Below, one piece after another: positions 2,666-21,387 of a stretch of DNA of 21,993 bases. Under the pieces are notes generated by a model. That model searched no databases. It saw only the letters and a program-made list of their open reading frames with translations, and had not been told where the DNA came from. The position numbers and the translations under genes were made by a program. Every line of letters begins with the position of its first letter. Positions within the stretch are counted from its first letter, which is position 1. Source of the DNA: a virus; the IMG/VR virus record IMGVR_UViG_3300013100_000033, positions 1-21,993 of that record, one strand, 5' to 3'.

Positions 2666-2818
2666 ATGTCGATATGGCCGAATGACCGCGACCCGCGCCC
2701 CAGTCTCAACGAAGCAGAGGCATCGCTGCGCGCGGCATTTGGCGCTCTCCGTGAAGCCAGGCACCCGCTACCTGAGGCGCTATCGGTCTACGTCGGGCGC
2801 TTGCCGCGGAAAGCTTAA
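2666..2818 (+). CDS. Probable 50-residue moron protein, opposite strand, function unknown
   Basis: A 51-codon frame on the plus strand begins MSIWPNDRDPRPSLNEAEAS and ends in TAA. It fills the 173-base gap between the NlpC/P60 gene and the tail-tip gene, which are usually nearly adjacent in this module. Its TAA and the TAA of the peptidase gene share the palindrome TTAA, the same tail-to-tail layout as the larger plus-strand gene at 4876-5607. The protein is charged, with one predicted amphipathic helix (ASLRAAFGALREARHPLPEA) and no membrane segment or cysteine. The helix plus the following proline-flanked PLPEAL loosely recalls NepR-type anti-sigma proteins, but this is too short to claim. 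There is no clear ribosome site before ATG 2666, which is the main reason for doubt. It could be chance coding in the reverse frame. Confidence 0.45.
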   Translation: MSIWPNDRDPRPSLNEAEASLRAAFGALREARHPLPEALSVYVGRLPRKA

Positions 2819-3243
2819 CTGCCAAACAGCGTGAAAAACTTGACCGGACGCGATCGCAATTCCTCATCGCGATCGACGTTACCGCGGACGACGCCACCGC
2901 CACGGATCACGGCGTGGATCACTTCCGGCATGTCGAGCACGATCGCACCGTGGCTGAAGCAGCGCCCGAACTTCCAGATCGCGAAGTCGCCGGGCTCGAC
3001 CCGTTTGCGCGGTATCTCGCGGGCATATTGGCGGACCCAGCCAAGATATTGTTCGTCGTCGCGGTGCAGCATCCATTGCGGCGAATATTCCGGGTTGGGG
3101 CCTTCCGGGACCAATCCCACCGTCCGATAGACGGCCAGCGGGTACATCGCGCAGTCGGTGCCGACGCCCTTGATCGCAGCGTGGGAATGATATGGCGTGC
3201 CTTCCCAGGCCAGCGCCTCGGCGATGACATCCTCGCGCGTCAT
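2815..3243 (-). CDS. NlpC/P60-family tail peptidase
   Basis: A 142-residue protein of the size of tail-associated NlpC/P60 domains. This family of cysteine peptidases cuts peptidoglycan cross-links and helps phage tails breach the cell wall. The catalytic cysteine is in GTDCAM (Cys31), the histidine in CFSHGAIVLD (about residue 98), and a polar third residue is probably His in VIHAV (about residue 109). The whole protein is one domain with no signal peptide, as expected for a virion part. The start ATG overlaps the stop of the DUF2163 gene as ATGA, so the two are translationally coupled. The same order (DUF2460, DUF2163, NlpC/P60, tip protein) is known from the Rhodobacter gene transfer agent. 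Downstream, its TAA stop overlaps that of the small plus-strand gene. Confidence 0.9.
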   Translation of the reverse strand: MTREDVIAEALAWEGTPYHSHAAIKGVGTDCAMYPLAVYRTVGLVPEGPNPEYSPQWMLHRDDEQYLGWVRQYAREIPRKRVEPGDFAIWKFGRCFSHGAIVLDMPEVIHAVIRGGGVVRGNVDRDEELRSRPVKFFTLFGS

Positions 3244-4106
3244 CCGAACGCGGTTTCCGGGACCGGGACATAGGGAGTTGCCTTGAACCGCCCGAGATTA
3301 TTGAACCGCGTCGTGCATCGACTCTGCGTCAGATCGCAGCCCGGATAAGCGGTGAAGGCATCGCCCGATGTCGGCGCGACCGGCAGCGGCGACACCATCG
3401 TCATCAGGCCGGAGCTATCATTGGACCGGACCGTCGCCGAGATGCCGGTATTGGGTCCGGACGTGAACACGATGCGCCCCTGCGCGAAATCGTTGGCCGT
3501 CGGCGTCAAGCTGGTATCGAACACGGTCTGCGTCGGCACAGGGGAGGCGCTGACAGTCCCTGTCACCGCGAACGATGCCGGATTGAGGGCACAGCCGGCG
3601 TCATAGACGGCATGGAGGCAGGCCGCCTGGTAGAGGTTGGCCGGCATGTTGGCGTTCAAGAGCACGGTCCAGGATGACACCGTGATCGTCGCCGAGTTGC
3701 CGGTGATCGCCGAGATCGCGGTGACGCGACCGGAGAACCGCAGCACGCTCCCGACGACCGGCAGATTCCAGTCGGTCAGGAAGGCGCGATCGAGCCGGAC
3801 ATTGGCGCCATCGAAGCCGTGGCCCCTGATGAACGGGATGATCGCGGTGCCATTGATCAGATCGTCGGCGTTGGCGGTGATCGCCATGTCGACGGTGGAG
3901 ACATCGAGCCCGATTTTCTCGCTGATGTCCTGCCTCTCGATGCCCGGGCCTAACACATAGGTATGGCCACCGGACACAACAGGAACATCGGCGCTCGACC
4001 AGCGGATCACAGAACCGCCGCGCAGCGTGATCGTCCAGAGATCGACCATCTGGAAGTCGGCGCCCGAGTTGAGCAGGGTGATGAGGGGGCCGGGAGCCGC
4101 TTTCAT
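3240..4106 (-). CDS. Tail hub protein, DUF2163 family (GTA gp13-like)
   Basis: A 288-residue protein of the DUF2163 family, which forms part of the baseplate hub in gene transfer agents and related siphophages. The family-typical C-terminus is clear (YPGCDLTQSRCTTRFNN followed by FKATPYVP). Four cysteines fall in two pairs, AACLHAVYDAGC near residues 163-172 and GCDLTQSRC near residues 256-264. Paired cysteines at this place fit an iron-sulfur cluster of the kind known in lambda gpL; the cluster itself is inferred. The N-terminal half is beta-rich. The start ATG follows the DUF2460 stop by three bases (TGA CCA ATG), with AAGGG seven bases upstream as ribosome site. Its own stop overlaps the peptidase start (ATGA). 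Confidence 0.9.
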   Translation of the reverse strand: MKAAPGPLITLLNSGADFQMVDLWTITLRGGSVIRWSSADVPVVSGGHTYVLGPGIERQDISEKIGLDVSTVDMAITANADDLINGTAIIPFIRGHGFDGANVRLDRAFLTDWNLPVVGSVLRFSGRVTAISAITGNSATITVSSWTVLLNANMPANLYQAACLHAVYDAGCALNPASFAVTGTVSASPVPTQTVFDTSLTPTANDFAQGRIVFTSGPNTGISATVRSNDSSGLMTMVSPLPVAPTSGDAFTAYPGCDLTQSRCTTRFNNLGRFKATPYVPVPETAFG

Positions 4107-4109
4107 TGG

Positions 4110-4766
4110 TCAGCCCTTGGTCGAGGTGAAGGAGAGCCCGCTTTGCGACCAGAGACTCTGCATCATCTGATTGAGCTCCAAGGTGTCGTCATCGAACCTG
4201 CACACGAACATGAACCGACCGGTCCAGGTCAGAGCCTTGCCGCTCGCCGGCGCGGTCGTGAACGTGATCGATCCGCGCGGGCCGATCGTGAATGCGGAGA
4301 TCGGGGTCGTGTCAGCGAACACCGTCGGGGTGCCGAGAACGCCGCCGACCGGTTCAGTGAAGGTCGAGCCGCCGAAGGTCATCGAGCGGGTCAATTGGAA
4401 CGTCGTGGTGACGCCATCGCCGGTGCCAAAGCGTTGCGAGGTGACGGTGTTGTCGCCCGGATCGTAGAAGAAGAATTCCTGATACTGCCCGGCATGGAGC
4501 AGGAAGAAGGCGGCGAGCCGGTCGAGGTCCGGGGTTGCCGGGAGATCGCGCAGCACCTCGTAGGCGACCTTGAACTGCCAGCGCGGATAGGACCAGGTCT
4601 TGCGGCGCCGTTCCCGGCCGGACGAGGTGGTCGCGATCTTCGTCGCCCAGGTTGGGGTCTTGGCGACCAGGAACGATTGCCCGATGAGTTCCGGGAACAC
4701 GTCTGGATCGTCGATCGATGGATCGGAGGTGATGAGCCAGCGTGTCGGCAGGTAGAGTGCTGGCAA
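4110..4766 (-). CDS. Distal tail protein, DUF2460 family (GTA gp12-like), TTG start
   Basis: A 218-residue protein of the DUF2460 family (TIGR02217-like), part of the distal tail/baseplate ring that connects the tail tube to the hub. Recognisable stretches are the N-terminal FPELIGQSFLVAKTP, the YPRWQFKVAYEVLRD block, then FFLLHAGQYQEFFFYDPGDN, and the GRFMFVCRFDDDTLEL near the C-terminus. The first codon is TTG at 4766-4764, preceded by GGAG six bases upstream. No ATG or GTG gives a full-length protein with as good a site, so TTG is the likely true start. A 109-base gap separates it from the plus-strand gene upstream, so the tail-tip operon is interrupted here. The DUF2163 gene follows after three bases. 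Confidence 0.9.
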   Translation of the reverse strand: MPALYLPTRWLITSDPSIDDPDVFPELIGQSFLVAKTPTWATKIATTSSGRERRRKTWSYPRWQFKVAYEVLRDLPATPDLDRLAAFFLLHAGQYQEFFFYDPGDNTVTSQRFGTGDGVTTTFQLTRSMTFGGSTFTEPVGGVLGTPTVFADTTPISAFTIGPRGSITFTTAPASGKALTWTGRFMFVCRFDDDTLELNQMMQSLWSQSGLSFTSTKG

Positions 4767-4822
4767 GGTGGTCTCCGTGTGAAGTCGGCCGCGCGCCGCA
4801 ATGGCGTGACCGATCGCGCGAC

Positions 4823-4875
4823 TTGACGCTGCACCCAGCCCGCGCGCAGGCTATGTCCAGCGGGAGGAGGTAACG
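4823..4875 (+). promoter_or_regulatory. Leader of the plus-strand exported-protein gene: strong ribosome site, possible -35
   Basis: The 53 bases before ATG 4876 hold a near-perfect ribosome site (GGGAGGAGGTAACG, with AGGAGG about five bases from ATG) and an upstream TTGACG (4823-4828). A TATGTC sits about 23 bases after TTGACG, too far for a standard -10, so the promoter is only tentative. The ribosome site is much stronger than those of neighbouring virion genes. Confidence 0.4.
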
Positions 4876-5607
4876 ATGCTTAAGTGGTTACTGGCGCCGG
4901 TCGCGCTGATGGTAATGACGACATCGGCTACGGCCGACGGTCAGGACAGAAAGCAGAACGCCGCTGCAGTCGCCGCGATCAAGGTCCGTGTTGACCAGCT
5001 GCGAGCCAATCCCCAATCCCGGAAATGCCTTGGCGCCGATGCGGTGACTTGCCTCGCCAGCCTGAGTTTCGGCGTCGCGATCACGACCGAACCGCTCTGG
5101 ATGGGCGGCGGCTTCAAACTGCCGGGGTCGGTCGAGCGGGACATCGATGGACGCCCGATTCCCCAGCTGGTGGAATTCCTCGTGGCGTTCGGCCCAAAAG
5201 ACCGTGACCTGTTCGGACCCAATATCGTGCGAGCCCAGCTGTGGCTTTCCGACGGCGAGCATGTGAGCGAGATCAAGTTCTTCCCGAAGGAGGCACCTCT
5301 GCTCGCGCGAACCAAAGAGGAGTGGGACGAAACCCACATTTTCGACATCGCGACTGCCGTCCTCGGCCAGGCTTGCGTCGGTCCGGATCGACTTGCTTTT
5401 TACCGCCGATACGACACTATTCAGAAGCAGATCATCGTCCCGGATAACATCAGCGGCTCCATCGCGGATCCGACCGTATCATCCGGCACTTCCGGAGAAG
5501 TTACGATCTGCGGAGCGATGATGTCAGCAGGATCGGCGTCCGGCATTTCCGCCAGCGTCGGGACATTCGGCGGGTCGTCGATCTCATTTTCCCTGCCAAC
5601 GCGCTAG
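4876..5607 (+). CDS. Exported protein of unknown function (moron candidate)
   Basis: A 243-residue protein on the strand opposite to all neighbouring tail genes. Residues 1-20 form a signal peptide: Lys after two residues, a hydrophobic core LLAPVALMVM, and a cleavage-like SATA/DG. The mature part should be periplasmic or secreted. It holds four cysteines (51, 59, 167, 212), enough for two disulfides, and a serine/glycine-rich C-terminal third. I recognise no family. No lipobox is present and no second membrane segment is visible. A strong AGGAGG precedes the ATG, pointing to independent expression. Its TAG stop and the TAG stop of the tape measure share the palindrome CTAG. A free-standing exported gene in a tail operon suggests a moron expressed in the lysogen, for example affecting the host envelope or blocking a second phage; this is inference. 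Confidence 0.85.
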   Translation: MLKWLLAPVALMVMTTSATADGQDRKQNAAAVAAIKVRVDQLRANPQSRKCLGADAVTCLASLSFGVAITTEPLWMGGGFKLPGSVERDIDGRPIPQLVEFLVAFGPKDRDLFGPNIVRAQLWLSDGEHVSEIKFFPKEAPLLARTKEEWDETHIFDIATAVLGQACVGPDRLAFYRRYDTIQKQIIVPDNISGSIADPTVSSGTSGEVTICGAMMSAGSASGISASVGTFGGSSISFSLPTR

Positions 5608-8567
5608 GCCGGCAGCGCGAACCCCAGCTTGCCTTCCCGGTGCGCCATCTTCATCGCCTTGGCGAAGGCGTTGCGGTTGGCGATGATCTGCGCCTCGGTC
5701 AGCCCGCGCGCGCTGTGGTCATGGTAGTGATAGCCACCGCCGGACGATCTGCGGTCATTGTCCGCGATCGGGGCGTTCGAGTTGGCGCCCCCGCCGAGCA
5801 ATGAACGCAGCGGTTGCGCCGCCCATGCCGGAAGCACCATTTCGTTCTTGTGCAACTCGGCCAGGGCGCCGTCGAATGGGACGTCGAACCAGCCCCCGGC
5901 AGCAGATGCCATCGGCAGAAAGGACATCGCCCCCGCAACGGCAGACGCTGCGGCCGCCGGCGCCAGTTCGGGACCAACGATAGGGATCGCGGCGGTTGCG
6001 GCGTAAGCGGCTGCACCAGCCTGACCCGCGCTCGATACAACCGATGCGGCGCCATCCGCCCCCTGCGCGGTCCTTTTGAGCAGAAGCGTCGAAAGTTCCT
6101 GGGCGATCCAGTTTTCCAGGATCTTGGCGATGGCGTCGCCGATGGCCTGCTGTACGGTCTGCCAGAGGCCCTTGATCGTGGCGGCGAACCCCTGCTGGAG
6201 GGTGATCATCTTGGCGATGTTCTGGCCCCACCCGGCCGCAACCTGGCTGATGGCCTGCCGCTCGATCGCCGTCCGTTCCAGCGTCGCCCTGCGGTCGATC
6301 TGGGAGAGCTTGGCCTGATGGCTTTGCTCAAGCATCTCAATCTGCTGATTGATCTTCGCAAACGCCGCAGGGTCGCGATTAGGATCGATCAGCGCCTTGC
6401 GCTGGGCGAGCGCCTGCGCCTCGATCTTATAGCGCTGATCTTCGAATTGCTTTTGCTGGGCGAGCAATTGCTGGTTGGTGATGACACCGAGTTGGTTTTG
6501 GAGTTCGGCGTCCTTTTCGGCTTCATCGATCCGCCGCAACTGCATGTCTTCGATATGCTTGAATAGATCGTCCTGGATGCGCCTCTGCTCATCGGCACCG
6601 CGGCGCATGATGTCGGTGATCTGTCGCTCCGCGTCCTGCGCCTGCTTCGACTTGTCGCCATAAGCCCGCTTATAGGCTGCCACGATCTCTGCGGCGATCC
6701 GCTGCATCTCGGGCATGTTACCCTTGGCGGCGTCCAGTTCGCGCTTCAGCGTCGCGATATGGTCGTCGAAGTCCTCCTTCCGAGCGGCGAAGCTGGCGTC
6801 ATAGTACTTCGTCTTGACCGCGATCAGTTCCTCATGGGACAGCTTCACGGTGTCGAGAATATTGCGCCAATAGGCCGCTTCCTCGGCCTTCGACATCTCG
6901 CGGAACGAATTGTCGGCTTCGTCCTCTTCCTGAAGGGCAAGCTTCTTCTCGGACAAGCCCTCCTCGAATTCCGACATGCGAGATTTCGGTTCCTTGGCCT
7001 TGCCCTTCTTGTCCTTGCTGAAGTCGACCGGAGGACCACCGACGGGCGATTGTAGCGTCTCGATCCCCGTCTTCTTAGATGCCGGCGGCGTGATTTGCTG
7101 CATCGCCCATTTGGTAAAATCAGCGGACACGCCGCCGGCCGCCGCGATCTCCTTGGCGGCCTGGATCCGGAAGTTCTGCGCCTCGCGCACAATCGCAGCC
7201 CCGCGCGCTGCGACGACGTTCTGGATCATGGCCATGCCATTGTCCCATGTCTGCGCGATCTTGCCCCATTGCAGACTCAAGGCCTCCTGGACGACGGTGC
7301 CGAGCAAATTGACCTCGGCTTCGATCTTGTCGATCCAGTTTAGGAAGTCCTCATAGGTCGTCTTTACACGCGACCACCACAAAAGGGTCTCAGCGACGAA
7401 GATGTGGTAATTCATCACCATCGTTTCGATGGCGTTGACGAACTGGACCTTGAGGTATGTGCCGTTCTCAGCGACCTGCGCGAAATAGGTCTTCATGGCA
7501 GTCGACCAGTCGCTCGCCTTCTGGCCGCTAGTCGAAAATATGCCACCGAACGCGTCACCGACATCGGCGAGCATGGTCTTCAGAGTCGACAACACCCCAA
7601 CGATGCCATCGAAGATAACCTTCCAGGTTCCGCCTTCGATGTAGCTCTTCGTAACATTCGAGGCGAGCGTATTGAAGTCGTCGACCACCTGCTTGAGCAT
7701 CGGTGCGAATGCAGAAGTCATGGTGTTGCCGAGACCGTCCCATGCCAGCTTCGATTCGTTCACGCTTTCAGCCAGCGCGAGGCCCTTCTTGGTGGCATCC
7801 TCGTTGATGACGCCATATTCTTCCGACTTGCGGTTGAGTTCAGCGAGGCCATCCGCGCCCAGGTTGAGGAACGGGATCATCTGGGCGCCAGCTCGGCCCA
7901 TGGTCTGGAACGCAAGCGCTGCTTTCTCCGGGCCGCCCTCCAATCCCTTAAAGCGGTTCATCACCGCCTCAAGCACTTGCATCTGCGTCGCGCCGTTCTT
8001 GACCTCGATGCCGAGCTTGCGGAAGGAATCCGGAGCCGTCTCGAACTTGCGGTCCATGAGCGTCATGCCGCGGGCGAGCGTGTCGAAGTCGATGCCGGTT
8101 GCAACGGCAGCGCCGCGCAATGCCTGTACCTGTTTCGTCGAGATGCCGAGGATCTGGCTCAAGTGCTCGGTGCGCTCGGCCGCCTCGCCCATCTTCTCGG
8201 CGACCTTCTTGATCTCCTCGACGGCGAACGCCGCCAACAGGAGTTCGCCGAAGCCGAAAACGGCTTCTTTCATCGACACGATTGCTTCAGCGCCTTCCCG
8301 AGCCGACAAGGCCATCTCGCGCAGCGATAGACCCTCTTTCTCTGTCTCCGCTTCCAAAAGGCCCATCTCGGCCGTCATTTCCGCAGTCGAGGCTGCCCCG
8401 GTGGTCATGCTCGCACGGATCTCTGCCGCCAGCGTGTTGAAGCCGGCGTTAAGAGCTTGGAGCGTATCCTGAAGACCGGCCATTTCGGTCTTCGTAAGAT
8501 TGACGGCAGGCGCAACGCCCGACGCATCTGCCGAGATCAGGATCCTCGCTTCGTTGTCACCCGGCAT
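5604..8567 (-). CDS. Tail tape measure protein
   Basis: At 987 residues this is one of the two longest genes here. Tape measure length sets tail length, and at the usual ~1.5 angstrom per residue this predicts a flexible tail of roughly 150 nm. Residues ~139-240 hold the conserved tape-measure core (LGISTKQVQALRGAAVATG). Residues ~550-790 are charged and heptad-like, predicted coiled coil with many Q, K and E. Hydrophobic alanine/glycine-rich segments around residues 840-890 may enter the host membrane. The C-terminus carries the family-typical AGGWFDVPFDGALAELHKNE followed by MVLPAWA. The start ATG lies inside the end of the preceding chaperone frame (11-base overlap), so translation is coupled. 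The stop overlaps the convergent exported-protein gene by four bases. Confidence 0.93.
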   Translation of the reverse strand: MPGDNEARILISADASGVAPAVNLTKTEMAGLQDTLQALNAGFNTLAAEIRASMTTGAASTAEMTAEMGLLEAETEKEGLSLREMALSAREGAEAIVSMKEAVFGFGELLLAAFAVEEIKKVAEKMGEAAERTEHLSQILGISTKQVQALRGAAVATGIDFDTLARGMTLMDRKFETAPDSFRKLGIEVKNGATQMQVLEAVMNRFKGLEGGPEKAALAFQTMGRAGAQMIPFLNLGADGLAELNRKSEEYGVINEDATKKGLALAESVNESKLAWDGLGNTMTSAFAPMLKQVVDDFNTLASNVTKSYIEGGTWKVIFDGIVGVLSTLKTMLADVGDAFGGIFSTSGQKASDWSTAMKTYFAQVAENGTYLKVQFVNAIETMVMNYHIFVAETLLWWSRVKTTYEDFLNWIDKIEAEVNLLGTVVQEALSLQWGKIAQTWDNGMAMIQNVVAARGAAIVREAQNFRIQAAKEIAAAGGVSADFTKWAMQQITPPASKKTGIETLQSPVGGPPVDFSKDKKGKAKEPKSRMSEFEEGLSEKKLALQEEDEADNSFREMSKAEEAAYWRNILDTVKLSHEELIAVKTKYYDASFAARKEDFDDHIATLKRELDAAKGNMPEMQRIAAEIVAAYKRAYGDKSKQAQDAERQITDIMRRGADEQRRIQDDLFKHIEDMQLRRIDEAEKDAELQNQLGVITNQQLLAQQKQFEDQRYKIEAQALAQRKALIDPNRDPAAFAKINQQIEMLEQSHQAKLSQIDRRATLERTAIERQAISQVAAGWGQNIAKMITLQQGFAATIKGLWQTVQQAIGDAIAKILENWIAQELSTLLLKRTAQGADGAASVVSSAGQAGAAAYAATAAIPIVGPELAPAAAASAVAGAMSFLPMASAAGGWFDVPFDGALAELHKNEMVLPAWAAQPLRSLLGGGANSNAPIADNDRRSSGGGYHYHDHSARGLTEAQIIANRNAFAKAMKMAHREGKLGFALPA

Positions 8568-8883
8568 TGGGATTTAGCCCCTTCAACTTTTCAAGGATCG
8601 CGGCGGATGCGGTAAGAGTGTCACCGCCCGCGATCGGCATCGGGACGGCGGCGGCGAGATCGGCGAGCGTCGGTTGGTGCGCATCGATCTCCACCGTCTC
8701 GGCCCGTTCCTCGCGATTGGCATTCTTAAGCAGGTCGACACCGAGCGCCGCAGCGATGTGTAGGGCGGCGATGTTCAGCGGCGGCCCGACGCGCTTCCAC
8801 GACCGGGCCTGTGCATCGACATCCTGCAGGGTCCAATGCTGCTCGATCGCGGCCTTGGAATGACCCTCGAGCCCGGCGCTCAC
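8557..8883 (-). CDS. Second tail assembly chaperone frame (gpT-like), probably made as a -1 frameshift fusion
   Basis: This frame gives 108 residues from GTG 8883, but that start has no ribosome site. The open frame extends upstream past the stop of the preceding chaperone gene (8904-8906) in the -1 register. The extension reads SLTDLIHDLVSAGLEGHS, which looks like real protein continuing into AIEQHWTLQDVDAQARSW. Position between the first chaperone and the tape measure, and this overlap, match the lambda gpG/gpGT arrangement, where a minor fusion product helps build the tail around the tape measure. The product was judged by context and frame, not by recognised motifs. Independent initiation at the GTG, coupled to the upstream stop, is the alternative. 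The stop overlaps the tape measure start. Confidence 0.7.
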   Translation of the reverse strand: MSAGLEGHSKAAIEQHWTLQDVDAQARSWKRVGPPLNIAALHIAAALGVDLLKNANREERAETVEIDAHQPTLADLAAAVPMPIAGGDTLTASAAILEKLKGLNPNAG

Positions 8884-8903
8884 CAGGTCGTGGATGAGAT
8901 CGG

Positions 8904-8961
8904 TCAGGCTTTCTTCGAGGCTCCCGCCGGCTTCGCGGCCACGGGAGCCTTCGCTTCCCCC
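8904..8961 (-). other. Candidate -1 programmed frameshift region between the chaperone frames
   Basis: Both frames are open here. The zero frame ends in TGA at 8906-8904. The -1 frame is open throughout and leads into the gpT-like sequence. The best slip candidate is the G-run at 8961-8957, read in frame as G GGG GAA; a Gly tRNA on GGG can re-pair perfectly one base back. A second, weaker A-rich candidate (AAG AAA G) lies at 8915-8909 just before the stop. Neither is the lambda heptamer. Confidence 0.5.
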
Positions 8962-9257
8962 GCCGATTTCAGCCCGGATTCCTTGGTGACGTCGAGGAAG
9001 GATGCCTGCATGGCGACGAAATCGTCCATGCCGACATTCGCCTCGAGATAATCGGGCGTCAGTTCCGGATCGATTCGGACGAGCCCGATCGACATCACGT
9101 TGAGCAGGTCGAGTGCGGAGTCTAGGACATCGACAAGGCCGGTGCCGCCCTCGCTGCGCTTCTGGATCGCATCGATGAACGGCGCCGCCTTGCGGAGATC
9201 GCCCAGCTTGTAGGGCGCGATATCGAAGTCGCGCCCCAAGATGGTGAGCTTGGCCAT
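8904..9257 (-). CDS. Tail assembly chaperone (gpG-like)
   Basis: A 117-residue protein starting MAKLTILGRDFDIAPYKLGD, located between the tail tube and tape measure genes as tail assembly chaperones always are. It is mostly predicted alpha-helical, with an acidic middle (VDVLDSALDLLNVM) and an alanine/lysine-rich tail (APVAAKPAGASKKA). The chosen ATG at 9257 overlaps the TAA stop of the tail tube gene by one base (TAATG), so it is read by coupled re-initiation. An in-frame start six codons upstream lies inside the tail tube gene and has no ribosome site. The 3' end is the probable frameshift region. A minor product should continue into the next frame. Similar chaperones coat the tape measure before tube assembly; that role is by family analogy. 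Confidence 0.75.
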   Translation of the reverse strand: MAKLTILGRDFDIAPYKLGDLRKAAPFIDAIQKRSEGGTGLVDVLDSALDLLNVMSIGLVRIDPELTPDYLEANVGMDDFVAMQASFLDVTKESGLKSAGEAKAPVAAKPAGASKKA

Positions 9258-10018
9258 TACTGCGCCGAGCCCCACTTCAGGACGTTGCCCGACGCGTCGG
9301 CAAACGCCGAGAAATCGAGTTCCGGGATCATGAAGTCGTCGATCTTGGTCTGGAGCGACAGCTTCGACGACACGCAGGCATACAGCGTGAGCGCCAGGCC
9401 GTTACCGCCGAGTTGGTTGAAGAAGTCGGCGCGGAAGGTCGGTGCCTGGCCCATGGCGACGTTCTGGACCAGCGACGTCTTCGCGACGGTCGAGGTCGCG
9501 GTGTACTGGTAATTGATGAAGACCAACTGTCCGGTGTCCGCCGCGGCAAAGGTGTAGACGCCGGTGGCGACGCTGTACTGGCCGGTCGCAGGGGCGGAGG
9601 CGACGCGCGTCATCGGGTTGCCCTGGGCGTTACGGACACCAAGGTCGGCCGACCACGTGCCGGAACCAGGAACGGTCGGCGTGATCTGAAAGGGCGTCGC
9701 CGGGATCGTCGCGCCGGTCGTGTCGACGACGTTGCTCAAGAGGCTCGACGTCATCGTCTGGCCAAAGAACAGTGAGTTGAGGATCGCGCCGTTGAACTGG
9801 CCATATTTGGCCTTGCCGGTGATCTTCATCTTGCCGCGGCCGACGGCGACCGGGAACTGGTTCGAGCCGTAGAGCTCCTTGATGTCGCCCGAGATGTCGA
9901 TCGACACTTCCTGCGTCACCGCCAACATGAGCGGGGTCGGGTTCGCCACTGCGGCGCCCGTGGCATCGAAGGTCGGCGTGCCCCACAGCACGCCGGCACC
10001 AAAATTGTACATTGCCAT
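9257..10018 (-). CDS. Major tail tube protein
   Basis: A 253-residue beta-rich protein that would polymerise as stacked hexamer rings into the non-contractile tail tube. It starts MAMYNFGAGVLWGTPTF. Supporting blocks are VTQEVSIDISGDIKELYGSN, then GKMKITGKAKYGQFNGAILN, which resemble siphophage tube subunits, and YSVATGVYTFAAADTGQLVF, which looks like a surface beta insertion (residues ~100-180). It sits between the tail terminator region and the chaperones, the standard place. AAAGGA eight bases before ATG 10018 is a good ribosome site, in keeping with a high-copy protein. The third codon is also ATG, so the start could be two residues later. The stop overlaps the chaperone start (TAATG). 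Confidence 0.82.
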   Translation of the reverse strand: MAMYNFGAGVLWGTPTFDATGAAVANPTPLMLAVTQEVSIDISGDIKELYGSNQFPVAVGRGKMKITGKAKYGQFNGAILNSLFFGQTMTSSLLSNVVDTTGATIPATPFQITPTVPGSGTWSADLGVRNAQGNPMTRVASAPATGQYSVATGVYTFAAADTGQLVFINYQYTATSTVAKTSLVQNVAMGQAPTFRADFFNQLGGNGLALTLYACVSSKLSLQTKIDDFMIPELDFSAFADASGNVLKWGSAQ

Positions 10019-12300: not shown

Positions 12301-13827
12301 TCAGCCGTTGGCGATGTTGTCGATGACGCCCATCGCGAACGGCGCATATACGGCCAGCACTTCCTCGACATAGACGCCGGACATTTCGGCGCGCGTCGTG
12401 ATCGGCCAGTCGATCTGGTAGTAGTCGCGGCGGACCTTCATCTCCGCGACGTTCGGCACCTCGGACGACTGGTACTGGACCGGCAGGTCGCCCGCCCAAC
12501 CCAGGATCGTGCCCGCCGACATGTTCGGGTGCAGCCGGATCGGGATTTTCTTGTTGAGGTACGGGTTGTAGTAATATTCCACGTTCCCGCCGGCGGTGAG
12601 GATGGCCTCGCCCTTCGCCGGGTCCTGGAAATAGTTGAGCAGCGAGGCCGAACCCGACGACAGCACCTTCTTGGTGATGTTCCGCTGTTCCTGCGAGTTG
12701 ACGTAGAGGACGTCGACCGAGCACTGGTAGTTGTCCCACATCGACTGCATCATGTCGTCGATCTCGTTGATCGAGCCCTGACCGGACGAGGTGAGCGGGG
12801 TACCGGTACCGGGCGTGCCGGTGGCCAGTGCCTTGACGTAGGCGCCCGAACCCGACTTGAGCGCGGTCGTCAGCAACCCGTCGAAGGCCAGCGTGTTGGT
12901 CGAGCAGTCCTGGGTGACCGCGGTGGCGGCCTGACCGGTGCCGGCGAGCGGGGCCGAGAAGGTGGCGGAATTGATCGAGGTGATCTTTTCCAGCTTCTCC
13001 GAGCCGGACGCGCCGACGAACCAGGCATAGCCGACAGCACCCTGGATCGGGGTCGCACTGACCGAGAGGGTCTGGCCGAGGGTCACCGCCTGGCTGGCAG
13101 CCGCCGACTTGTTGGACGAGCCGCCATAGATGGTGAACGTCTTGCCGTCGGCACCGGTAACCGTCTTCGAGGTTGCCACACCGTTGGCGAGCGAACTGTT
13201 CCGCATGCCTTCCATGGTGAGGGCAACCACGATCACCGAATAGGTGAGGGCCGGGAGAGTAGCGCCGCTGCCCGCCGCCGATGCGGTCGGGGTGGCCGGC
13301 GTGCCGAGCGCGAGCGAAGCGTTGCCGAAGATGACGCCCGCTTCTTCCTTGAGCATCGTCTTCTGCAGCAGGCGGGTCGTCATCGAGGCCTTGATGTCCT
13401 CGAAGGTGCGGCCGGCGCTGATGGCTTCGAAGGTGGCCTGGTCTTCCTCGCCCAGCGTCACATACGGCGCGGCCTTGTTGGTGGTCGAATACGACATCTG
13501 GCCGGCGCGCTGACCTTCCGGCACCCAGCCGGTGTTGTCGAACCCCGAACCGGTGATGGCGTTGACCGCCTTCCAGTTGGTCGCCGTGCCGGTCCCGCCA
13601 CCGACGCGCGGCAGCATTTTGATGATCGGAGTATTGACCGGGTAGAGGTTCTTCGCCGGCGCCTGCAGGTCATACGCGACCAGGCCGGTGCCGGTCGTGA
13701 TCGCCTTCTCGACCATGTCGGGACGGCCGCCGGCCATCAGCATGATCTCGCGGGCGATGTCCTCGCTGGGATTGGTCAGGCTGGTGACGAGAGCCTTCTT
13801 GATCTCGTCGGGGGTGATCATGTTCAT
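12301..13827 (-). CDS. Major capsid protein (HK97 fold) with inserted beta domain
   Basis: A 508-residue protein, clearly the capsid subunit by position after the protease-scaffold gene and by sequence. The N-arm and start of the HK97 fold run from residue 1 to ~175 (NLYPVNTPIIKMLPRVGGG, EEDQATFEAISAGRTFEDIK). The fold resumes from ~309 (QSMWDNYQCSVDVLYVNSQE), with the late block KKIPIRLHPNMSAGTI and the C-terminal RAEMSGVYVEEVLAVYAP. Residues ~176-308 are a serine/threonine/glycine-rich beta segment resembling an Ig or fibronectin domain (GAVGYAWFVGASGSEKLEKI). Inserted surface domains like this occur in other capsid proteins, often for stability or sugar contact. AAGGA lies eight bases before ATG 13827; ATG at the third codon is an alternative. 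There is no obvious cleavage site, so whether the N-arm is processed is open. Confidence 0.92.
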   Translation of the reverse strand: MNMITPDEIKKALVTSLTNPSEDIAREIMLMAGGRPDMVEKAITTGTGLVAYDLQAPAKNLYPVNTPIIKMLPRVGGGTGTATNWKAVNAITGSGFDNTGWVPEGQRAGQMSYSTTNKAAPYVTLGEEDQATFEAISAGRTFEDIKASMTTRLLQKTMLKEEAGVIFGNASLALGTPATPTASAAGSGATLPALTYSVIVVALTMEGMRNSSLANGVATSKTVTGADGKTFTIYGGSSNKSAAASQAVTLGQTLSVSATPIQGAVGYAWFVGASGSEKLEKITSINSATFSAPLAGTGQAATAVTQDCSTNTLAFDGLLTTALKSGSGAYVKALATGTPGTGTPLTSSGQGSINEIDDMMQSMWDNYQCSVDVLYVNSQEQRNITKKVLSSGSASLLNYFQDPAKGEAILTAGGNVEYYYNPYLNKKIPIRLHPNMSAGTILGWAGDLPVQYQSSEVPNVAEMKVRRDYYQIDWPITTRAEMSGVYVEEVLAVYAPFAMGVIDNIANG

Positions 13828-20582: not shown

Positions 20583-20996
20583 CTACACCGAAAACACAAT
20601 GGCCCGGATCGCTTCCGCGACTCCATTATGGTTGTAAACCGATGGGAACATCAGATCGGCCATCGTGAAAACAAACGTCAGCAACATACCGCCGGCGCCC
20701 AGCACGGCGACGACGAGTGCGGCTGTCATATGAGCAATTCCTTTTCCCGACACGACCTGATCAATGCCGAAGAACCCTAGTCCTCCAAATGCGATGCATG
20801 TCATCAAGGCCGCGAGCGCGACCCATCCCATGCGGCCGCCCATGAAGAACCCAAAATGGGCACCGGCCCAGTTGAGGCCAAGCAGCAACGCTAGGGCCAG
20901 CAATCCGCATAGGGTGAACGTGATGACCGGGCGCGATTTGCCGGAAGGACCGCCAAAGCCACCAGCGATTGGCATGAAGAACGGAAAGAACATCAT
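20583..20996 (-). CDS. Small membrane protein with three predicted helices
   Basis: A 137-residue protein. Three hydrophobic segments are seen: VITFTLCGLLALALLLGLNW near residues 24-48, GWVALAALMTCIAFGGLGFF near 57-80, and AALVVAVLGAGGMLLTFVFT near 91-112. The N-terminus is glycine/phenylalanine-rich. AAAGGA lies seven bases before ATG 20996; a longer in-frame start would overlap the upstream stop and has no ribosome site. Size and helix number fit a holin, the membrane pore that times lysis, but no lysin gene is adjacent and no holin motif was recognised. A phage exclusion protein is an equal possibility. It ends the upstream gene group, before the operator/terminator spacer. Confidence 0.7.
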   Translation of the reverse strand: MMFFPFFMPIAGGFGGPSGKSRPVITFTLCGLLALALLLGLNWAGAHFGFFMGGRMGWVALAALMTCIAFGGLGFFGIDQVVSGKGIAHMTAALVVAVLGAGGMLLTFVFTMADLMFPSVYNHNGVAEAIRAIVFSV

Positions 20997-21018
20997 CTTG
21001 TCATCCTTTGGTTGTCGA

Positions 21019-21387
21019 TCACCGCCCACCGATCGGAAGGGAACGGATAGCAGCGGCGATGTCTTGGGCGGTCGGGAGGCGCTTCATCTTCATGCGATAC
21101 TCGGGCACCTCGACCTCGCCACCGTAGTCGTCAATTTCGATGTGCGCAGGGATCACCTTGTCAGGCGCAGGGACCATCGCCGCCATGCCCTCCGCCACCT
21201 TCGCACAAGCCTCTCTGACCCTCTCGGCTTCGGATGCACGATGGCGGGCGAAGGAAAGCACAAGCGGCGTGTCGCACTTGCCTTGGCGGATAGGTCCGAG
21301 ATCGACGCACCACCCGGCAGCGCCCATATAGTCAGCCGCTGCTTCCCGATCCGCTTGCGTCACCTCCACTATAGATAGATCAGACAT
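21019..21387 (-). CDS. Unknown small soluble protein
   Basis: A 122-residue protein that begins MSDLSIVEVTQADREAAADY and ends DIAAAIRSLPIGGR. The start ATG 21387 overlaps the previous gene's stop by eight bases (ATGTCTGA) and has AAGGA eight bases ahead, so a longer frame starting in the neighbour is rejected. The middle has a helical, alanine/arginine-rich stretch, SFARHRASEAERVREACAKV. The layout (short N-terminal unit, charged helix, C-terminal AIRSL) resembles small early-region phage proteins of the Ea22 type, but I do not assign a family. It is cotranscribed with the gene before it. Confidence 0.7.
   Translation of the reverse strand: MSDLSIVEVTQADREAAADYMGAAGWCVDLGPIRQGKCDTPLVLSFARHRASEAERVREACAKVAEGMAAMVPAPDKVIPAHIEIDDYGGEVEVPEYRMKMKRLPTAQDIAAAIRSLPIGGR

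Follow-up and report, generated by a model that had tools for sequence, protein, structure and literature searches.

Exclusion by HK97 gp15 and by TP-J34 Ltp is overcome by changes in the tape measure protein (TMP) (PMC10883804, PMC3952083), and the exclusion exerted by gp15 is escaped via exchange of the tail tube/TMP genes (PMC10883804). P22 SieA is a prophage protein, occurring in very divergent types, which blocks injection through the trans-periplasmic conduit (PMC10883804). SNIPE acts at genome injection via association with the TMP, and susceptibility to it follows TMP clades (PMC13190303). The immunity conferred by Tha of S. aureus prophages is switched off on induction by an antisense gene (PMC11087260).

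The locus described here lies in a 21,993-base IMG/VR record, the whole of which is referred to below as the window. Besides genes for terminase, portal and capsid it has a minus-strand tail module. The tail genes run in the order TMP (987 aa, complement of 5604–8567; PHROG_2854, E=1e-31), DUF2460 or distal tail protein (complement of 4110–4766; PF09343, E=1e-42), baseplate hub (complement of 3240–4106; PF09931/PF09356) and NlpC/P60 peptidase (complement of 2815–3243), an arrangement familiar in gene transfer agents. Upstream of the TMP gene two small minus-strand genes (8557–8883 and 8904–9275) occupy the place where tail chaperones sit. A 148-aa protein with several hydrophobic stretches and without a family match is specified near the terminase end (complement of 20583–21029).

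Between the TMP and DUF2460 genes, on the plus strand, is a gene with an ATG start (4876–5607) which is a real gene and specifies a 243-aa exported protein, termed here family A1. Its stop codon (5605–5607) overlaps that of the TMP gene (complement of 5604–5606), tail to tail, and its start lies head to head with that of DUF2460, 109 bp away. An earlier note, made from the sequence alone, had described an antisense gene with a very strong ribosome site and a signal peptide, and both features were confirmed. The ribosome-binding site, GGGAGGAGGT, occupies positions 4862–4871, and a purine-rich site resembling it precedes most A1 homologues. The predicted signal peptide (codons 1–20, 4876–4935) has K3, a hydrophobic stretch at residues 5–16 and the cleavage site A18-T19-A20 followed by D21, the A-x-A motif being kept in most members of the family. 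The mature part, from about residue 21, carries cysteines 51, 59, 167 and 212, as that note had listed, and these are invariant in 17 aligned homologues. A1 has no lipobox, its mature N-terminus being D21 and its first cysteine residue 51; neither a further clear transmembrane segment beyond the signal peptide nor an outer-membrane beta-barrel was recognized.

The junction which this gene splits is, as had been claimed, otherwise standard. In Rhodobacter phage RcOceanus the TMP gene ends at 13343 and DUF2460 begins at 13345, so that the two abut, and in most of some 60 distant DUF2460 contigs, where the TMP was called from position and size only, the gap is less than 60 nt. A1 is therefore, as is typical of morons, inserted between genes otherwise adjacent in related phages. 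The control junction, from DUF2460 to the next gene, had gaps below 60 nt in 51 of 57 cases and only one above 250. At least three distant lineages place other antisense exported genes in the TMP–DUF2460 junction: those of contigs L129, L191 and L198 have signal-peptide-like starts. The slot of L162 holds an antisense DUF1643 gene, and very few occupied slots depart from the antisense orientation. L191, from an unrelated phage, carries two tandem antisense exported paralogues (2764–3909) between a TMP-sized gene and DUF2460.

Searches by tblastn and by pattern recovered A1 homologues, 44–97% identical, from Sphingomonas asaccharolytica NBRC 15499 and from 21 further viral contigs; wherever the contig includes the flanks, the gene again lies antisense between TMP and DUF2460. 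The earlier note had proposed a search outside phages, and the S. asaccharolytica genome is its outcome; this was the only one of 351 Sphingomonadales genomes with a further A1, and isolated phages and plasmids gave no homologue. A weak match in genome G491 was set aside since it contains in-frame stops. Searches of Pfam, PHROG, NCBIfam, PADLOC and the PDB gave nothing significant, which agrees with the initial statement that the mature part belongs to no known family. As to selection, which the same note had wished to see examined, dN/dS is 0.12–0.34 in 9 of 11 pairs, with third codon positions the most variable, and A1 is under purifying selection. One pair, L019/L020, gave 0.81 with few differences, and in another, L006/L021, synonymous sites are saturated.

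Sister phages whose TMP is of another type have, at this site and on this strand, a different exported family, A2. Homology between A1 and A2 was rejected by profile comparison, and A2 itself gave nothing significant in family and structure libraries. Relatives of A2 are also found, antisense and in the same slot, in the more distant phages L120 and L121. Carriage by temperate phages is seen in slots within bacterial contigs: an A2-bearing slot lies in a 1.26-Mb contig of genome G158 and an A1-bearing slot in S. asaccharolytica, no integrase being seen near either prophage slot. Two acyltransferase-3 genes, possibly belonging to the phage, lie near the tail fibre end of the G158 prophage (L090:4281–5438 and 7728–8855).

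Some slots hold more than one gene. In five contigs (L012, L023, L013, L021 and L026) a 55-aa BRI3-like membrane protein, composed of a zinc ribbon plus membrane part (PF10164, E=1e-7 and 1e-6 for the two tested), is specified ahead of A1 on the same strand, at 9885–10049 in L012; in L033, which has A2 cargo, the corresponding ORF (1068–1232) is interrupted by an internal stop. Three A1 homologues (L013:9385, L021:7152 and L026:9425) are without ATG at the conserved start, that of L026 being CTG; a rare start codon, coupling to the BRI3-like ORF and decay are all possible. In L022 (3909–6590) A2 shares the slot with genes for a small Pmp3-like protein and an O-acetylase-type acyltransferase-3. 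Two more distant prophages carry, respectively, antisense YbjQ/zinc-ribbon, PDZ and Pmp3-like genes (L093) and a PDZ exported protein in the same sense as the tail (L094).

Relatives of A2 were also located outside the slot. In L118 one is placed after the tail fibre gene, in the opposite orientation, and in L122 one adjoins an HTH repressor-like gene (PF13560, E=3e-7; PHROG repressor, E=0.003). A P4-like element, L095:2589–14509, specifies an integrase, a Prim-Pol/D5 protein, a PtuA-like ATPase with PDC-M01B, a type IIG restriction enzyme and an A2 relative which is remote (24% identity, hhalign 94%). Such sites are where prophages and satellites keep lysogen genes.

The predicted structure of A1 has a pLDDT of 75. 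Foldseek comparison with the PDB gave a best E of 0.024, with DcrB at 0.19, none significant; the A2 model matched DcrB at 0.058, likewise not significant. The Mog1p/PsbP-like group (DcrB, together with EagT6, MTC28 and LpqN) recurs at low rank for both A1 and A2, and this predicted fold is a lead only. DcrB is a described member of that group (PMC7716261).

The divergent spacer from the DUF2460 start to the A1 start (4767–4875, plus strand) is the presumed promoter region. An element of 80 bp precedes the A1 genes in five contigs (L006–L010) and also A2 genes, matching at E 1e-17 to 1e-26 and less strongly in L090 and L022. It includes TTGCGA-N16-TAGCGT, which may be a promoter. The DNA upstream of A1 in L012 and of A2 in L033 is 75% identical over 543 nt. 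The element was not found in the window's 109-bp spacer, nor in several other A1 contigs, and a scan of the window for the sigma-70 consensus returned nothing. The sequence TTGACG at 4823 was rejected as a promoter, as no -10 box follows at the usual distance. No RNA family matched the long spacer of L012.

The cargo type is inherited with the TMP. On trees of the genes used as backbone controls the A1/A2 label changes 7 times for the hub and 7 times for the NlpC/P60 peptidase, and on that of DUF2460 6 times, compared with about 7.5 when labels are shuffled; on the major tail protein tree there are 4 changes versus 5.3 shuffled. On the TMP tree there is a single change, with full support, and on those of the two small genes upstream (8557–9275, minus strand), which are inherited together with TMP and cargo, one or two. 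In phages about 90% identical elsewhere, identity drops about a quarter of the way into the TMP gene, is low across the cargo and the spacer alike, and returns once DUF2460 is reached. Within A1, distance tracks that of the middle of the TMP (r=0.82) rather than that of the adjacent TMP C-terminus (r=0.30, partial -0.08). The former correlation rests on three deep lineages and is nil within the clade of short TMPs. In L024–L026 the C-terminal part of the TMP differs, and the A1 subtype is still that of other short-TMP phages. L015 and L021 have TMPs 95% identical, yet their A1 subtypes differ. The coupling may in part be linkage, because cargo and most of the TMP gene form one divergent block offering little homology for recombination. 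No pattern of charge matching was seen between A1 and the TMP C-terminus. The TMPs of L006, L012, L013, L015 and L024, from phages about 90% identical elsewhere, are hypervariable from about a quarter of their length, and the TMP is likely to be under a diversifying pressure of its own.

The earlier note had read the gene as a moron, and this reading has gained ground: the gene appears as exchangeable cargo in a defined slot, is under purifying selection, has an unrelated alternative occupant and is carried in bacterial genomes. On these sequence comparisons, that it is a moron with an exported, independently acquired product and not a fixed virion part is well supported. The note's suggestion of a block to DNA entry fits both the co-inheritance with the TMP and the genes among which A2 relatives are found. 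That the gene is exchangeable, runs backwards and has a secreted product which travels with the injection protein is a hint that the prophage deploys it to keep related phages from delivering their DNA. We therefore tentatively favour, at somewhat less than an even chance, a superinfection-exclusion protein of the periplasm, expressed in the lysogen from a cassette of temperate Sphingomonas siphophages and acting at the step of genome injection, with the TMP conduit as its probable target. On this view the TMP–DUF2460 slot would house a moron cassette open to exchange, with the A1 gene as its cargo, and we infer that the lysogen would make a secreted, probably disulphide-bonded A1 protein which excludes related phages as their genomes are injected, most likely by interfering with the TMP conduit across periplasm and inner membrane. 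The cassette is read against the direction of late tail transcription. Transcripts continuing from the TMP gene into DUF2460 after induction would thus run antisense over the A1 gene, and A1 might be turned down at the stage when the phage's own TMP is required. Against exclusion directed at the TMP, A1 looks soluble, whereas the TMP-directed exclusion proteins known to us are membrane-bound or lipoproteins.

The same evidence may be read in other ways. A1 might be a lysogenic-conversion gene for host fitness, its periplasmic or secreted product altering the envelope or stress tolerance with no anti-phage role and only a physical link to the TMP. The Pmp3-like, BRI3-like, PDZ and acyltransferase neighbours in relatives' slots are a mix which fits general envelope change, and TMP and cargo do lie in one low-homology block; however, cargo type changes once on the TMP tree and at random on the genes of the other flank, and A2 relatives adjoin a repressor-like gene and phage-defence genes; we consider this rather unlikely. 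If instead the exported protein masked or inactivated a receptor at the outer surface, adsorption and not injection would be blocked. Export itself and the O-acetylase-like acyltransferase in the same slot of L022 are consistent with such a role, but the protein lacks a recognizable beta-barrel, lipobox or transmembrane anchor, and among the genes compared (TMP, DUF2460, hub, NlpC/P60, major tail protein and the two small genes) it is the TMP, rather than the hub, that the cargo follows; we think this improbable.

A protein of the virion or the lytic phase, whether a minor tail component, an exported lysis helper or an aid to TMP assembly, would account for the constant position beside the TMP gene and for inheritance with it. 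Its strand is nevertheless opposite to the late operon, it has a signal peptide, most phages which share the tail module have nothing in the junction, and unrelated proteins replace A1; we regard such a role as very improbable. Least credible is that the transcript matters more than an incidental protein, with the cassette regulating late tail genes through antisense RNA. Nearly every occupied slot does have the antisense layout, but unrelated coding regions would not then keep export, dN/dS falls far short of 1 in almost every pair, the cysteines are invariant and signal peptides are conserved.

Returning to exclusion at injection, one might ask whether the TMP–DUF2460 junction of gene transfer agent-like tails is a general exclusion slot, in which the cargo, encoded antisense, is a secreted anti-injection protein exchanged along with its matching TMP and silenced by antisense RNA from late transcription. 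We regard this extension as doubtful. The slot itself is a defined one, where unrelated phage lineages keep antisense exported-protein genes coupled to the DNA-delivering protein. If the cargo does exclude at injection, many new exclusion proteins could be found by position alone, each paired with its TMP target.

The HK97 gp15 gene is a moron which sits in the tail region, and A1, for which exclusion is proposed here, resembles it in being such a moron of a prophage. Unlike gp15, a predicted inner-membrane protein, A1 is apparently soluble and exported, is specified on the opposite strand and gives no profile match. The Ltp gene of TP-J34 is located in the lysogeny module and encodes a lipoprotein of Gram-positive hosts, whereas A1 has neither lipobox nor family match. 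P22 SieA differs again, as an inner-membrane protein directed against podophage ejection proteins, and SNIPE is a membrane-bound nuclease, A1 being without a nuclease or transmembrane domain. Homology of A1 to gp15, Ltp or known defence proteins was not found in Pfam, PHROG, NCBIfam or PADLOC. Tha and Ith are a HEPN RNase and its protein inhibitor; for A1 the antisense RNA would be that of the tail operon itself, and a switch-off on induction through this layout is suggested by comparison with Tha. By analogy with HK97 gp15, TP-J34 Ltp and SNIPE, exclusion at injection through the TMP would be the best single explanation for A1.
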